From Sodalis sp. CWE (GTDB lineage Bacteria; Pseudomonadota; Gammaproteobacteria; Enterobacterales; Enterobacteriaceae): DNA of 64,000 nucleotides. Location of the stretch: NCBI RefSeq assembly GCF_019646055.1, contig NZ_JAESFE010000001.1, positions 1 to 64,000 on the forward strand, in the 5' to 3' direction. A program made the translations under genes and the position numbers. The notes under the pieces were generated by a model. It was not told the DNA's origin. It did no database searches and saw only the letters and a program-made list of their open reading frames with translations. This document shows positions 24,854-57,851 of the stretch, in pieces; positions within the stretch are counted from its first letter, which is position 1, and each line of letters begins with the position of its first letter.

Positions 24854-26506
24854 TCAACAACGACGCCAAGAGTGATAACAGTTAATTAAACCATTAGTAG
24901 AACTATCATGAGTATTCACTGGACTATTTTGAGTTAATTCTGGTAGAATGCGGCCAGCGAGCTGCTTCCCTAATTCAACTCCCCATTGATCAAAGGTATA
25001 TACGTTCATAATTATTCCCTGTGTAAAAATTTTATGTTCATATAATGCAATAAGTGCTCCCAAAGTATAGGGAGTGATTTTACGAATCAAGATAGAGTTA
25101 GTGGGACGATTACCTTCAAACACCTTAAATGGTATAACATTCCTGACTTGATCCAGTGTTTTTCCGTTTGAAAAAAACTCTTCTTCTACTTCTTTACGCG
25201 ATTTTCCAAAAGCTAAGGCTTTAGTTTGAGCAAAAAAATTGGAAAGTAACTTAGTATGATGATCAGCAATAGGATTATGGCTGATAGCAGGTGCAATAAA
25301 GTCACATGGAACAATTTTAGTTCCTTGATGAAACAATTGATAAAAAGCATGTTGACCGTTTGTTCCTGGTTCGCCCCAAATAATAGGTCCAGTTTGATAA
25401 TTAACAAAATTTCCGTTTCGATCAATAGATTTTCCATTAGATTCCATATTTCCTTGTTGAAGATAAGTAGGAAAGCGATGCATATACTGATCATAAGGGA
25501 GAATCGCTTCGGTTTCCATACCAAAAAAGTTATTATACCAAACACCAATCAGTGCTAATAAAACCGGTAAATTTTTATTAAACGGAGTTGAAATAAAGTG
25601 ATGATCCATAGCGTGCGCGCCGCTAAGTAATTTTTGAAAATTATCAAATCCCAATGATAACATAATAGAAAGACCAATAACAGACCACAATGAATAGCGA
25701 CCGTTTACCCAATCGCACAATTTAAACATATTTTCCATTTCAATGCCGAACTCCATCACTGCTTTTTTATTAGAAGATAGCGCAATAAAATGACGAGAAA
25801 TGTGTCGCTCGTTTTTGGCAGCTTTTAAAAACCAACTTTTTGCACTATGGGCATTCATCATAGTTTCTTGAGTAGTAAAAGTTTTAGAGGCTACCAGAAA
25901 TAAAGTGGTAGACGGATCGAGATTTTTTACTGTTTCAGCAAAATGAGTTCCATCTATATTTGATATGTAATGCATATTTAAATGATTTTTATAAGGTCGA
26001 AGTGCCTCGTTGACCATATATGGGCCAAGATCGGATCCTCCTATACCGATATTGACAATATCGGTAATTGGATGATTAGTATAACCTTTCCATGTTCCAC
26101 TAATTATTTTCTTACAAAACTGATTCATTTTTTCTAATGTTGCATTAATATCTGGCATAACATCTTTTCCATCTACATTAATTGGCATATTACTACGATT
26201 CCGCAAAGCGACGTGTAGTACAGGTTTATTTTCAGTACGATTGATTTTTTTTCCAGTAAACATAGAAGAAATACCTTCTTTAAGGCCACATTCGTCTGCT
26301 AAAGCCAATAATCGAGTTAAAGTTTCATTGGTAATGCGATTTTTTGAATAATCCACTAGAATTTGATCATCGAAGGTAGCTGAAAAGGAAGAAAAACGAT
26401 CAGGATCTTGCGCGAACAGGTCGCTTATTTTTACATCTTTCATTATAAAGAAATGTTGTTGCAGTGCCTTCCAGGATCTGGTATGACAAGGATTGATATT
26501 TTTCAT
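24854..26506 (-). CDS. pgi: Glucose-6-phosphate isomerase
   Basis: Interconverts glucose 6-phosphate and fructose 6-phosphate. I start at ATG 26506 (MKNINP) because AAGGG precedes it and the protein is then 550 aa (E. coli 549); an upstream in-frame ATG would add seven residues. Strong family blocks are present: [45 protein letters not shown] and the substrate-binding [10 protein letters not shown]. One departure is seen. The signature WVGGRYSLWS reads [10 protein letters not shown], putting Asn for the first glycine next to the active-site arginine. It is divergent from lysC, as in the E. coli neighbourhood. Confidence 0.97.
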
Positions 26507-27080
26507 AAAAAACCCTTTTGAGAACAAGTTTGCTTATTTTTTTGTTGTATATTTTTCAGACGATTGCTACTTATCTTTATTGAATTTTAAAGTTATGTAA
26601 ATTTTCCATTATTTCAATGATTTATTTGGTACAGAAATCATTGGTTCTTTTTAAGAATTATTCCTTTTCTTCAAAAGAAAAGATAAAACTGCCCTTTAAA
26701 ATAATTTCTATATCATTAATAGAACTTATGTAAGATTCTTAAATTTCATTATTTATATTTTTGGCGTATATATCATGTATTAAAAATATTCCAGATGGAA
26801 ATAAAAACAACACCAAAGAATTTGTCTTAAAAAGACATGCGCCTTTTCAAAAGGAAATAAATAAAATATTGACAATGTTGTGATTAATCTTGTTATCTTG
26901 TCCGTAAGAAACATTAATTTTTTATTAAAAATTATCAGAATATTCTTTGTTTCTTTCTAAAAGAAAATGTTTACTGTATTTAATCCTTAATTTCCATTTC
27001 TTATCTATGATCTTCCAAATTGGAATTATTTAATTTTATTAATTCTACATCTTCTATGATGCTTAATATGAGTCTCACAT
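26507..27080. other. Divergent pgi-lysC spacer; no lysine riboswitch seen
   Basis: E. coli lysC has a lysine riboswitch leader. I looked for the conserved AGAGG core and the long multi-helix fold and did not find them. Perfect hairpins present are 26664-26682 (arms CTTTTCTT, loop CAA), 26823-26837 (arms TGTCTT, loop AAA) and 26842-26854 (arms CCTTT, loop TCA). The last two stand in tandem just upstream of a TTGACA box. Confidence 0.5.
26869..26897 (+). promoter_or_regulatory. Candidate lysC promoter (-35 TTGACA)
   Basis: A consensus -35 TTGACA at 26869-26874 is followed after 17 bp by GTTATC, a poor -10. It lies about 180 bp upstream of the lysC start. The perfect -35 is suggestive; the weak -10 keeps confidence low. 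Confidence 0.3.
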
Positions 27081-28448
27081 ATGTTAATTGATTCTGCTAC
27101 TTCATTTCAAGTAGCTAAATTCGGAGGAACTAGCTTGATTGATTTTGAATCAATGAACCATAGCGCAAATATTGTACTAAATAATCCTATGGTGCGCTTA
27201 GTAGTACTTTCTGCGTCAGCTGGCATTACTAATATACTTATTGCACTTTCTGGAGGTCAAAAAGAAAGCTACAGAAGATATTTTCTAAATAAAATTCGGC
27301 AAATTCAATATAATGTTATTGATCATCTTATCGATAAAACGAGCGTTCGAAAAAAAATTGATCAAATGATTTATAACATTGGATTACTGGCTAAACTAGC
27401 ACAACTTAAGACTTCATTAGCACTGACTGATGAATTGGCTAGTCACGGAGAATTAATGTCTACATTATTGTTTGTGGAAGTTTTACGTCAACGTGGCGCA
27501 TCAGCAACATGGTTTGATATACGTAAGGTTATGCTCACTGATAACCAGTTTGGCCATGCTAAACCTTATGACTATCTACTTAAAACCCAAACACGCGCTT
27601 TACTTATACCACGTTTAAAAACTGAGTTAATCATTACTCAAGGATTTATTGGAAAAGAGTTCAACGGTCGTACCACTACCCTTGGACGTGGCGGAAGTGA
27701 TTATACAGCAACATTACTTGGAGAAGCGGTAAAGGCAAGACAGGTTAATATTTGGACTGATGTACCAGGAATTTATACTACTGATCCACGTATCGTACCA
27801 CAAGCCAAACGAATTGAAAAAATCAGCTTTAAAGTGGCTGCCGCAATGGCTATCTTTGGTACTAAATTTTTACATCCTGAGACACTAAAACCAACGATAC
27901 GCAGTGCAATCCCAATTTTTATTGGATCCAGTAAAGAACCCAACGCTGGTGGAACGTTGGTGTACAACTATACCGAACATCAGCCATCATTCTCTGCCAT
28001 ATCTTTGCGTTATCATAACATATTACTAATATTACAGAATTTCGGTATAATGTGCGCAAATAAACTCCTAGAACAAGTACTTAATACATTAAACCGACAC
28101 TCTATTTTGGTAGATTTTATCACTTTTTCTAAAATTAGCGTATCGTTAATAGTCAACCCCTTTTCAAGGCTACCTATTAACGACAAAAATTTGTTTATAA
28201 ATTCTATTTTGACAGAATTATCTCTTTTATGTAACTTTTCAATAGAAGAGAACTTAGCTATTGTCACAATAATTGGTAATAGGTTACGAAAGATAAATAA
28301 ATCGGATAGAGAGTTACTATATAATACTCTTGATAAGCTTAACATTCGGCTTATTTTTGGGGCTAGTAATTATAATATTTCTTTGTTAGTTTCCAACGAT
28401 GATGCTGAAAATATTGTTAGGGTTCTACACAATTCATTATTTAGATAA
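27081..28448 (+). CDS. lysC: Aspartokinase III with altered lysine-sensing ACT site
   Basis: Phosphorylates aspartate, the first step to lysine, diaminopimelate, threonine and methionine. It is 455 aa (E. coli 449). The kinase domain keeps KFGGTS, TDELASHGE, GFIG, TTTLGRGGSDYTA and WTDVPGIYTTDPR. The C-terminal ACT domains are normal in length, but the lysine-contact region differs. By alignment, E. coli M318 is I323, H320 is C325, S321 is A326, G323 is K328, F324 is L329, T344 is F349, E346 is K351 and T352 is I357. E250 is A255, and D340 and S345 are kept. From memory, M318I and T352I are feedback-resistant E. coli alleles, and other substitutions at E250, G323 and T344 also desensitise. 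I infer weak or no lysine inhibition. The start is ATG 27081. Confidence 0.96.
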   Translation: MLIDSATSFQVAKFGGTSLIDFESMNHSANIVLNNPMVRLVVLSASAGITNILIALSGGQKESYRRYFLNKIRQIQYNVIDHLIDKTSVRKKIDQMIYNIGLLAKLAQLKTSLALTDELASHGELMSTLLFVEVLRQRGASATWFDIRKVMLTDNQFGHAKPYDYLLKTQTRALLIPRLKTELIITQGFIGKEFNGRTTTLGRGGSDYTATLLGEAVKARQVNIWTDVPGIYTTDPRIVPQAKRIEKISFKVAAAMAIFGTKFLHPETLKPTIRSAIPIFIGSSKEPNAGGTLVYNYTEHQPSFSAISLRYHNILLILQNFGIMCANKLLEQVLNTLNRHSILVDFITFSKISVSLIVNPFSRLPINDKNLFINSILTELSLLCNFSIEENLAIVTIIGNRLRKINKSDRELLYNTLDKLNIRLIFGASNYNISLLVSNDDAENIVRVLHNSLFR

Positions 28449-29199
28449 GTTTATAAAACATATATACACACTAGTTTAGTTAAAACATATTTCTCCTATT
28501 TACTTTTTCAATAAAATAATGAAAAGATTTAAATTTTAAAAAAATAAGATGTTTTTTATCTTAAAAAGATCTGCTTTCAGTAACATCTTTAGATATAATA
28601 TTTTTGGAATTTATTGTTTAATTGATGTACTGATATTAAATAGTAGTTAAAATTTTTTAAAAATTTAAAGAACATTCTCAAAAATTGATGTTGAGAAGTA
28701 AGTGTTATTACCTTGACTTTTGATCAAACCATTAACCTAATTTCAATAAAAATTTTTTCAAGACTGTTTCTTTGCCTTTTTCTTAAAAAGAATGATTAGT
28801 GTTAATTAAATTAACTTTTTTAAATTTTTCAAAAGAAGCTTTTAAGTAAAGGTAGATTTCATCAATAAAATGCTCTAATAAAACAGGTTCTCGAATTCGA
28901 AAATTATCCTAGTTGCTTTATAGAAATAAAAGCTAAAACCAATTTAAATTCAGTACAGATAGTTTTTTGAAAATTTATTTTAAATGCTTGTATATTTTAC
29001 ATACTTTTTATATTAAAAGTTGAAACATCTTAAATTTTTATATTGATAAGCAATAAAGCCAATCGCTTAAAAGAAGCACTCGTAAAACTTGCTTCGCACT
29101 CGTTATATTTTAAGCTTCTTTAAAAGATATAACGCTAGAACTGCAAATTAAAAGGCCGCATAGCGTGTTATTAAATTAATCAAGAGAATAAGAATTATC
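28449..29199. other. Spacer upstream of the speD remnant; speE expected but not readable
   Basis: In the E. coli speED operon speE precedes speD. I compared this stretch with SpeE blocks and found no convincing match, so it is either deleted or eroded beyond recognition. A short direct repeat GCACTCGT occurs twice at about 29075-29100. Small hairpins include arms CTTTTT with loop CTT at 28776-28790. Confidence 0.5.
29101..29134. repeat. Long imperfect hairpin beside the speD remnant
   Basis: Outer arms CGTTATAT/ATATAACG pair over 8 bp. An inner TTTAA/TTAAA stem of 5 bp, with a two-base bulge, closes on a 6-nt loop. There is no U-tract. It could be a relic of the speD leader or a chance fold. 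Confidence 0.35.
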
Positions 29200-29710
29200 A
29201 ACAATTTGATTTAGATCACTACATGCAAACTTTTAAAAATCAAAGAACTACTACAGGAACCAATAGCGCGATTTATGCACTTAGAAGTCGTCCATATTTG
29301 CGTTCATTTTATCTCAGAACGCTAGTCAAACGATAATTTTATATTCATCGTAACGATGTTAAAGGAGAAATACATTGTTTCATTTTTATTCATTAAAAGC
29401 TTCAAATTATTCACTTCATCAAATTAGGCAATCAGATATCAGTGTTTTATCATAATTGATTATTATTTCTGCGTAATTTTTAGAAATGTAGAGCAGTTAA
29501 GGTACTACATTTACTGAATTATTTCAATTTAAAATCTTCTTTTAAAGAAATGAAAGCGTTCAGTCAGGCGAGAGATACAAAGTTTTATCTGAAAATATAT
29601 TTCATACTAAAATGGTTCTTGGAAATTTTGATCTAATTATTCTGGAAATTAATAATGTTAATTCTAAAGAGAACAGTGGTCGCTTATTTGATCGAATAAA
29701 GAGTTTATAA
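29200..29710 (+). pseudogene. speD: S-adenosylmethionine decarboxylase pseudogene
   Basis: Intact SpeD makes decarboxylated S-adenosylmethionine for spermidine. Several pieces match E. coli SpeD in the correct order but in different frames. HLEVVHICVH near 29293 corresponds to HLDKSHICVH. RNDVKGE...C near 29349 corresponds to RADIEVSTC. LKASNYSLHQ with SDI near 29393 corresponds to LKALNYLIHQ...SDI. ENIFHTKM.L..FDL near 29591 corresponds to the same residues in E. coli. Stops and frameshifts lie between the pieces. The serine that becomes the pyruvoyl cofactor is replaced by Val in the first fragment. E. coli speD also lies downstream of lpd and faces it, so position supports the call. The 5' boundary is approximate. 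Confidence 0.88.
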
Positions 29711-29816
29711 ACGCTAGTAGCAAATGAGATTTTTAATAAAAGTTTATTTTGAATAAAAAGAAATTTTTTGAATAAGCTTCAAATTTAGATACGATTAAAA
29801 TAATCAATTCCATGCC

Positions 29817-54985: not shown

Positions 54986-56358
54986 GATACCCTCTCTTGT
55001 ATGGAGAGCACCACTTGCTCCATCACAGCATTGCGTGATCCTTTTATTAAAATGGTTGTCGGTTTTTTTTCGGACAGAAGTAGCAAAATTCGATCAATTA
55101 ATATTGCTTTGTTTTGAAAATGTTCGCCTCGTCTGCTAGCATTGCTAATTAAATAACTAAAATAACCAATGCTGAGTATTTTGTCGATACCAGATGTTGC
55201 GGCAATAATTTTACCTATATTCCAATGATACGCTGCTGTGTTATTTCCCAATTCAGCCATATCACTAACTACCATTACTTTGTATCCAGGTATTTTCAAT
55301 AGAACTCTTATAGCAGCAATCATCGAGCCAACATTGGAGTTATAACTATCGTCTAATAATAATTGATTTCTTCCAAGAAGAATAGGAAATAATCGCCCAG
55401 GAAGGGGTTGAATTTTTTTTAAACCAGCAACGACAGAGGATAACGATGCTCCTACTGACATTGATAACGCGCAGGCAGCTAAAGCATTAGAAACGTTATG
55501 TATTCCCAGTAATGGCAATCGTACCGCACACGCTCCTGATGGAGTATGTAATAGAAAACGTATACCTTTTAAGTTTTCTTCAATATGGCTAGCAAAGAAA
55601 TCAACGTTGTTGGTTGCCTGTGTAGCAAATCGCCAAATATTTCTTTGATCTAAATCCTTTTTCCAATTTTTCCAATCATGACTGTCAGCATTAAAAATGC
55701 CGCGTCCATTAATACTTAAACCAGAGAAAATTTCTCCTTTAGCTTTTGCTACAGCTGATAAAGAGCCGAATCCAGTCAAATGAGCTATAAAAAGGTTATT
55801 TATCAAAGCAGCTTCCGGGCGAACTAAGCTAGTAATCCAAGAGATTTCACCAAGACGATTGGCTCCAATTTCAATAACTGCATAATCATGTATGGGTGTT
55901 AAACGTAGTAAAGTTAATGGTACGCCTATTTCATTATTAAAATTTCCCTGTGTTGCTAAAACGTTTCCGCATTGGCGCAAAATAGCAGCTGTCATTTCTT
56001 TAACTGTAGTTTTTCCAGAGGATCCAGTTACAGCAACAATTCGCGCCGAAACTTGTCGACGTACCCAGGCGCCTAACTGACCAAGTGCACGTTTTGTGTC
56101 AGTAACGATCAATTGCGGAACAGTTAATGGTATTGGACGATTAACCAATAAAGCACTACAAAAAGAAGTACTGATAGCTTGCTTAGCAAAATCATGCGCA
56201 TCAAACCTATCCCCTTTTAACGCAACAAATAAACATTTACGTTTCATAGTAGCACCTAGTGTACGTGAATCAGTTGTGACAGTTTCGATACAAACGTCTT
56301 CTCCAATCCAATCAGCACGAAGAATCGATGCGATGGTGCTGAGTCTAAATGAAATCAT
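54979..56358 (-). CDS. murF: UDP-N-acetylmuramoyl-tripeptide-D-alanyl-D-alanine ligase
   Basis: Adds D-Ala-D-Ala to the tripeptide precursor. I start at ATG 56358 (MISFRL), which overlaps the murE stop as ATGA and gives 459 aa (E. coli 452). A frame reaching 56481 would lie inside murE. ATP loop [24 protein letters not shown] and [13 protein letters not shown] blocks are present. AGGAGG lies about 12 nt upstream inside murE. The D-Ala-D-Ala substrate needs a Ddl enzyme; ddlB is missing from its usual place, so another ddl is expected elsewhere. Confidence 0.97.
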
Positions 56359-57851
56359 GTATCGATCGCTCCTCCTAATAACTGTGCTACAATGGCACGA
56401 TCGGAGTGATAGATTGTTTTTTGTCTGATAATTTGATAATTTTCGTGGCCCTTTCCAGCTATTAGGATTATATCTGTCCATTTAGCTTGCATAATTGCGG
56501 AAGTTATTGCTTCGGAGCGATTGAGAATCACCTGCACTCGCTTCTCATCTTGGAAACCTTTTCTGATATCATTAATGATGTCCAACTTTGTTTCATTACG
56601 TGGATTATCATCAGTAATGATAATTTCGTCAGCATATAGATAGGAAATAGAAGCCATTAGTTGTCTTTTTCCTTTGTCACGATTGCCTCCGCAGCCAAAA
56701 ACACACCACAATTTTCCATTACAATGCAATTTTGCTGTTATTAATGCTTTTTGTAGCGCTTCAGGATTATGAGCGTAATCGACTAAAACTGTAGGTAAAC
56801 CTTTTGCACGAAATGCTTCCATGCGTCCGCAAATAGAACGCAATTGACGTGCATTCTTAAGTAAGATTGGAAGCGAATAACCGATCGAAAGTAGTGTTGC
56901 TATTGCTAATAACAGATTAGTAACATTAAATTCTCCAATCAATGGACTTTGTAACTTTCCATTACCCCAACTAGAACAAAAAAGAATCTCTGTACCGTCC
57001 ATATGGTAATATATTTCTTCAGCATATAACCAATTTCCATTTCTTTTTTTTGGAAAATTTTTTTTAGTTGATACAGAAATTGCGGCTGGCAGCATTTTAA
57101 GCCAATGACGGCCGATAATATCATCTGCATTAATAACATATTGACTGACGTCTAATTCGCTAAAAAGTCTCCATTTAGCTGCTTTGTAATGCGACATATC
57201 ACCATGGTAATCTAAATGATCTCTACTGAGATTTGTAAATACTGCAGCCGAAAAATGAATATTCTCAACGCGATGTTGATCTAACCCGTGAGAAGAAACT
57301 TCCATTGCCACAAAATTTACTCCTTCTTTTTGAAATTCTGACAATTGTCGCTGTATTTTGATTGGTGATTCAGTGGTACTATTAGATGGAGAAAGATGAC
57401 TTAAAATGCCATTTCCAATGGTACCCATTACAGCACTATTTTCTATTCCTGACAGCTGTGCCAATAGATGAGTAGTTGTAGTTTTTCCGTTAGTTCCAGT
57501 AACGCCAACCAAACACATGGTTTGCGATGGATGTTGATAAAAACGTCCAGCTATCTCGGACAAACGCTCGCGAAGGTGATGCAAATAAATAACTGGTATA
57601 CCTTGAATTTTATAAATTTCATTATTGTTAGAATTTACTTCATTTTCTGCTTGTGCTACAATAGCAGCAACTCCTTTTGCGATAGCTTGCTTAATATAAA
57701 GACGTCCATCTGTTTGATGACCCGAAATTGCTACAAATAAATCGTTTTTTGATGCAACCCGGCTATCTAGAATTATTTCATTAAGTAAACATTCTGGAAC
57801 ATCAGAAGTCCAAGGAGCTAATAAGTAGCGCAAATTACAACGTTTAGTCAC
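56355..57851 (-). CDS. murE: UDP-MurNAc-dipeptide:meso-diaminopimelate ligase
   Basis: Adds the third amino acid of the stem peptide. It is 498 aa (E. coli 495). ATP loop [30 protein letters not shown] and the DDNPRNE motif are visible; DNPR specifies meso-diaminopimelate rather than lysine. The start is GTG 57851 with AAGGGA upstream. The enzyme links the wall pathway to lysC in this window, since diaminopimelate derives from aspartokinase product. It lies 17 bp after ftsI. Confidence 0.97.

Follow-up and report, generated by a model that had tools for sequence, protein, structure and literature searches.

Whether an allosteric site decays after its ligand has ceased to be what the pathway makes is a general question, and a series of aspartokinases that includes the one encoded by lysC of Sodalis sp. 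CWE makes it testable. This gene lies in the stretch of DNA analysed here (the window), the 64,000 nucleotides at the start of contig C2 (NZ_JAESFE010000001.1) of a 797,418 bp assembly (GCF_019646055.1, genome G000) composed of two contigs of 594,011 and 203,407 bp, and it encodes an aspartokinase III (AKIII) whose regulatory half differs extensively from that of the Escherichia coli enzyme. The explanation we favour, with a probability of about 0.62, is that this is a functional aspartokinase III serving the synthesis of diaminopimelate for peptidoglycan, and that its lysine-sensing half has been under relaxed constraint since the loss of lysA. The features of the gene are as follows.

27081 to 28448, plus strand: lysC, aspartokinase III of 455 amino acids, the sole aspartokinase found in the genome (open reading frame listing; NF006570 match, 541 bits).
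27108 to 27926, plus strand: kinase (AA_kinase) domain with catalytic residues kept (PF00696 match).
27993 to 28445, plus strand: regulatory half, changed at 44 of 84 conserved positions (its counterpart in E. coli AKIII comprises two ACT domains).
28032 to 28154, plus strand: lysine-contact stretch, residues 318-358 of the window protein (alignment to E. coli LysC; contacts from table 2 of PMC8092979).

The frame runs open from an ATG start to its stop with 0 internal stops, and the protein exceeds the cut-off of the NCBIfam model for lysine-sensitive aspartokinase 3 (541 bits against 455). E. coli AKIII (2J0W/2J0X) aligns with it over residues 9-454 at 471 bits and 51-52% identity. None of the 14 conserved aspartate- and ADP-binding residues listed in PMC8092979 is changed (the fifteenth, V258, is F in the window protein and was excluded, being less than 95% conserved), which bears out the claim of an earlier note on this DNA that the kinase motifs are intact. 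A decaying pseudogene is not favoured, given the open frame and the kept catalytic residues. A PF00696 profile search of the genome returned two proteins only, LysC and a 241-residue frame taken to be PyrH (UMP kinase). In Pfam, the regulatory half gave an ACT_9 match over residues 416-452 only, part of one ACT domain. Judged by descent, this is an intact aspartokinase III to which the label "lysine-sensitive" should not carry over.

Relative to E. coli LysC from NC_000913, which supplies the reference and the numbering, the window protein carries E250A, M318I, H320C, S321A, G323K, F324L, T344F, E346K and T352I. All nine substitutions named in the earlier note are thus present, and its equation of residues I323 and I357 with M318I and T352I is correct; S338L is present as well. 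How unusual these residues are was judged against two sets of proteins. A LysC match was found in 179 of the 198 family genomes, from which 50 loci were taken (the 30 best and 20 picked) and later 4 more; LysC fragments with stops (G026, G028, G106) were left out. With E. coli these gave 55 aligned rows, and the 38 rows from large genomes (at least 2.7 Mb; E. coli and 37 of the 50 loci) served as reference. The second set, from a separate search, comprised the best 80 of 585 confirmed named relatives; a scan of named genomes that used only the window protein as query yielded 17 pattern matches and 0 relatives. E250, M318, G323, F324, T344, E346 and T352 are identical in all 38 large-genome rows and in all 80 best named relatives, and H320 in 35 of the 38 rows and 76 of the 80 relatives. 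At position 321, Ala stands in 29 of these rows and 56 of these relatives, so that S321A is the family norm and no departure. By this comparison, eight of the nine listed changes are real departures.

The lysine contacts given in PMC8092979 are residues 318, 321, 324, 325, 338, 339, 340, 345 and 346. Across the large-genome rows they form a conserved set, M-x-F-L-S-V-D-S-E, with any contact changed in 0 of 38 (lysA was tested in 7 of the 38, all 7 over cut-off). The window protein has I, L, L and K at 318, 324, 338 and 346, so that 4 of 8 conserved contacts are changed, while L325, V339, D340 and S345 are unchanged. Three of its residues are identical to feedback-resistant E. coli lysC alleles (M318I, S338L and T352I), and at the positions of three others, E346R, G323D and T344M, it carries different replacements (E346K, G323K, T344F). 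In E. coli AKIII, M318I and T352I are listed as making the enzyme insensitive to lysine (PMC10464499), and S338L and E346R are reported as deregulating, E346 being a lysine salt-bridge residue and D340 belonging to one of two such bridges (PMC8092979). E346K is a charge reversal, as is E346R. Unlike the E. coli alleles, the changes in the window protein are natural, occur many together and stand in a symbiont in which lysA was not found; insensitivity would be expected from them by analogy. Overall, the protein resembles E. coli AKIII in its full-length match and in all 14 conserved substrate residues, and contrasts with it in the replacement of M318, H320, G323, F324, S338, T344, E346 and T352 and in that no riboswitch was found upstream. 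These observations make it likely that lysine control of the enzyme has been lost or weakened, and loss of lysine inhibition is the probable outcome.

The remaining pathway genes suggest why such control may have become dispensable. Homoserine dehydrogenase was not found in the window genome (PF00742, a family detected in all 14 control genomes), nor was lysA (TIGR01048, which matched in 13 of 14 controls, in 11 over cut-off, and which exceeded the cut-off in 10 of the 17 genomes of that search). The genes dapA, dapF and asd are present and stop-free, and murE lies within the window itself:

56355 to 57851, minus strand: murE, diaminopimelate consumer, named by eye from its translation; it carries DNPR, the diaminopimelate-type motif.

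The route therefore appears to stop at diaminopimelate, and lysine, threonine and methionine should not be made through it. The earlier note had suggested looking for dapA and lysA downstream; across the genome dapA is present and lysA was not found. An endosymbiont of the feather louse Columbicola wolffhuegeli, which falls in a clade with Sodalis, was reported to have a lysine pathway complete except for one gene, unnamed in the sections available (PMC8173840); the missing gene is likely lysA, and our result suggests that the description of this symbiont as having a "largely complete lysine pathway" needs correcting. Columbicola symbionts are described as lacking amino-acid pathways except for parts yielding chorismate and diaminopimelate, used for vitamins and peptidoglycan, and as supplying B vitamins; the same paper calls feather keratin nutritionally complete in amino acids (PMC11137140).

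The changes in LysC extend over the whole regulatory half. Of the positions that are at least 95% conserved in the reference rows, 23 of 151 are changed in the kinase half of the window protein (residues 1-292 of E. coli LysC) and 44 of 84 in its regulatory half (residues 300-449; one-sided Fisher p = 2.7e-9). An AlphaFold2 model of the protein has a mean predicted local distance difference test score (pLDDT) of 82, its regulatory half shows strands and helices as expected for ACT domains, and its best matches among solved folds are 2j0w and 2j0x (TM-score 0.84). Ten-residue means fall between 49 and 88 in the regulatory half, a low confidence that limits what this ligand-free model says on the lysine pocket. 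Such a spread of changes is consistent with relaxed constraint on the regulatory domain as a whole and is no demonstration of selection for release.

To place the window protein among its relatives, lysA was scored in 24 genomes (17 and 7), of which 16 were over the cut-off and 8 were not. No match at all was obtained in five of the latter: the window genome, G008, G036, G039 and G160. Among lysA-less genomes, the number of the eight contacts changed is 4 in the window genome, 4 in G008, 5 in G160, 4 in G115, 6 in G219, 5 in G049 and 0 in both G036 and G039. Among small lysA-bearing genomes it is 0 in G134, G094, G135 and G123, 1 in G013, G120 and G223, 4 in G294 (including one alignment gap at 318) and 6 in G353. 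With site loss defined as two or more contacts changed, and with G115 and G219 belonging to one genus (g116) and G120, G223, G294 and G353 to another (g121), the site is lost in 5 of 7 lysA-less genera (the window genome, G008, G160, g116 and G049) against 1 of 6 lysA-bearing genera with small genomes. In G008, G160, G115, G219 and G049, which represent other lineages, LysC resembles the window protein in its eroded contacts and less changed kinase half and carries M318I in 4 of 5 cases, though the replaced residues are partly different. Erosion of the lysine contacts, which the earlier note proposed seeking by alignment as convergent loss of the ACT site, is seen in most lysA-less genera, though not in all of them, and it also occurs where lysA is kept. 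Since one of the six lysA-bearing small-genome genera has eroded too, the link to loss of lysA is suggestive only, as is a causal role of that loss in the decay of the site. G049 is very divergent (33% identity; end branch of 10) and its placement in the tree unreliable. In a tree of the kinase half, the window genome groups with G004, G054, G103, G134 and G036, and this set of six has support of 100/99 (with the bootstrap not fully settled). G160 (locus L038) keeps lysC, dapA and dapF, and asd was not found in it with the same model; this genome may have a broken diaminopimelate route, or its Asd may have been missed or be unrelated.

In the explanation we favour, the lysC product would by now serve solely to start the synthesis of the diaminopimelate needed for peptidoglycan. 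With lysA and the homoserine dehydrogenases gone, lysine would no longer be a product of the pathway, and inhibition by it would for that reason have stopped being useful; lysine supplied by the host could even, through such inhibition, starve wall synthesis. The regulatory domain would then have been relaxed, with enough structure left to fold and probably to dimerise, while decay set in at the lysine pocket and in the way it is coupled to the kinase. The catalytic activity of the enzyme, its insensitivity to lysine and the precedence of the loss of lysA are what we infer here. On this account the proteins compared form a natural series of aspartokinases seemingly without amino-acid feedback, in several of which the end product became a wall precursor, and they warn against transferring "lysine-sensitive" in annotation.

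Two further points of lysine control were considered, an upstream riboswitch and DapA, the second lysine-inhibited enzyme of the route. The features concerned are:

24854 to 26527, minus strand: pgi, an open reading frame identified by eye, which adjoins lysC in E. coli too (gene order of NC_000913).
26528 to 27080, plus strand: upstream gap between pgi and lysC, with no lysine riboswitch found (Rfam).
Contig C2, 443152 to 444006 (locus L069): dapA, with S48I, H56Y and Y107F.

At the gathering threshold, 7 of the 20 loci examined gave a match to the lysine riboswitch (RF00168) ahead of lysC. All 7 come from large genomes, E. coli among them, and the 13 loci from genomes of at most 2.4 Mb gave 0, whether or not lysA was present. 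DapA was compared across 17 genomes and E. coli. In the window genome it carries S48I and H56Y, positions 48, 49, 51 and 56 being lysine-site residues, and Y107F at a catalytic-triad position. Changes in other lysA-less genomes include S48M/H53K (G036), H53R (G039), S48A/H53Y (G008), E84Q/H53Y/L51I (G160), H56Y/N80S/E84K/Y106F (G115) and several changes (G049). Changes are also present where lysA is kept, namely E84K/H53Y (G135), A49V/H53Y (G094) and T/S at 48/49 (G004, G103, G134). Tyr at position 53 occurs naturally in a lysine-inhibited homologue (PMC11201819), and for that reason was not counted as loss. As a second test of the link to lysA, DapA therefore gives a mixed answer, the enzymes of the lysA-bearing G135 and G094 being altered too.

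A number of observations weigh against the account given above. In the lysA-less G036 and G039 the LysC site is fully kept, and the domain shows the same decay in genus g121, all four genomes of which have lysA, with 4 of 8 contacts changed in G294 and 6 of 8 in G353. The tree gives 3 independent pairs, with a mean of 1.5 in the predicted direction and 0 in the opposite one, a number that has no power and cannot reach significance, so that a statistical link between loss of lysA and loss of the site is not shown. Three of the genomes counted as lysA-less (G049, G115, G219) do have a weak lysA match below the cut-off (E-values of 1e-27 to 1e-31); such matches, in frames of about 635-695 residues, are seen additionally in lysA-bearing genomes, and in G049, G115 and G219 they are provisionally taken to be arginine decarboxylase. 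The absence of the riboswitch is general to all 13 small-genome loci, with or without lysA. Averaged over the six lysA-less proteins with an eroded site, a lysine contact is changed in 3.5 of 6 and any other conserved regulatory position in 2.8 of 6, which is no significant excess (permutation p = 0.19). Targeted rewriting of the pocket thus finds no support. That the route leads to diaminopimelate is read from asd, dapA, dapF and murE, and would also require dapB, dapD, dapC/argD and dapE. Lastly, the enzyme may still bind lysine weakly, which is conceivable because D340 and S345 are kept.

Genus g121 offers a further observation, namely a stepwise series over the contact positions (loci L042, L076, L077 and L079): KKFLSVDSE in G120, QQFLSVDSE in G223, -KFLPVDDK in G294 and YQILPVGTK in G353.

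Some of these points could be the result of decay in small genomes as such, in which bottlenecks and AT-biased drift would wear down a symbiont's allosteric domains regardless of what the pathway ends in, the loss of lysA being coincidental. The similar decay of the regulatory half in g121 (34-39 of 84 positions) would follow from it, as would the recurrent M to I, E to K and V to I changes, which are AT-favoured and would have drift as their cause. However, G123, with 0.7 Mb and lysA present, keeps 8 of 8 contacts despite 23 of 84 regulatory changes, G120 and G223 keep 7 of 8, and the kinase half is less changed within the same proteins; we regard drift on its own as unlikely, though a serious candidate. 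Rather doubtful, in our view, is adaptive desensitisation, whereby host lysine would shut the sole aspartokinase and stop wall synthesis and insensitive variants would be favoured by positive selection. It would account for the desensitising M318I in 5 of the 6 eroded lysA-less proteins, where the other four conserved Met positions became Ile in 0-1 of 6, for E346K in 4 of 6 (the window genome, G160, G219 and G049), for S338L and T352I in the window protein and for the altered DapA site. Yet the contacts are not significantly enriched over the rest of the regulatory half, which contains only one conserved Met, and E346K occurs in the lysA-bearing G294 and G353 too. Because M318I and E346K are single AT-favoured steps, we read their recurrence as hints of desensitisation and no proof of selection.

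Lysine control might instead persist in weakened form through D340, S345, V339 and L325, and the unchanged D340 does form one of the two salt bridges to lysine (PMC8092979). As E346K removes the other bridge and adds a like charge, and as M318I and T352I render the E. coli enzyme insensitive and S338L is reported to deregulate it, we consider this improbable. Even less can be said for a site re-tuned from lysine to meso-diaminopimelate in lysA-less symbionts: K346 (G000, G160, G219, G049) would pair with the extra carboxylate of diaminopimelate and D340, kept in G000, G115 and G049, would still hold the amino end, but the same single AT-favoured step in the lysA-bearing G294 and G353 leaves the idea very improbable. 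The earlier note saw a nutritional symbiont selected to release lysine or diaminopimelate flux. Its lysine half, overproduction for the host, we judge highly unlikely, because lysA, encoding the decarboxylase that makes lysine, was not found, and because the kept genes are assigned to peptidoglycan diaminopimelate in a host whose keratin diet is complete in amino acids (PMC11137140); a host-encoded decarboxylase is reported for whiteflies (PMC9084900). Diaminopimelate flux is the part of the proposal that may hold. Genus g121, with eroded contacts and lysA present, would suit a lysine-release idea better than the window genome does.

In the open-licence literature searched, no account of symbionts having lost the lysine site of LysC was found. 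Blochmanniella lineages without lysC are described in PMC12779916. Wolbachia with lysC and without lysA are described in PMC9084900, the available sections of which mention neither feedback nor the ACT domain; feedback is likewise unmentioned in those of PMC8659303.

On both sides of lysC, long stretches (28449-29816 and 26528-27080) lack any open reading frame of at least 90 amino acids and are possibly the remains of deleted genes.

A separate observation concerns G115, a small genome of the same family (755,758 bp; 21.7% GC over ten stretches), in which frames bearing TGA occur on stretches L168, L169, L170, L174 and L176. Of 14 reference proteins (from E. coli, the window and G000, several chosen because the G115 frames held TGA), 11 gave matches, and the 11 in-frame stops of G115 within them are all TGA, 10 on Trp and 1 on His; the genes concerned are recB, recC, nuoC, nuoG, dxs, pheT, priA and asd. 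An initial comparison, with frames of the window and of G219, showed 4 in-frame stops: a TAA at a natural end, a TGA opposite Pro in a weak alignment, and two TGA opposite Trp, in priA once more. When TGA is read as Trp, 8 of 9 frames match recB, recC, nuoG, pheT, priA, dxs, asd and nuoCD over long stretches or nearly their full length; the match of the ninth is weak. A cruder count of long frames, which is less telling, gave 17 of 80 in G115, 0 of 16 in G219 (same genus, 40 kb) and 4 of 29 in the window, and the ten G115 stretches yielded four tRNAs, none of them tRNA-Trp. A further in-frame TGA lies in the dapF of G115 (L166), at a position that is Trp in E. coli DapF. Taken together, these alignments indicate that G115 very probably reads UGA as Trp, a reassignment already reported for the reduced gammaproteobacterial genome XS4 (PMC12213064).
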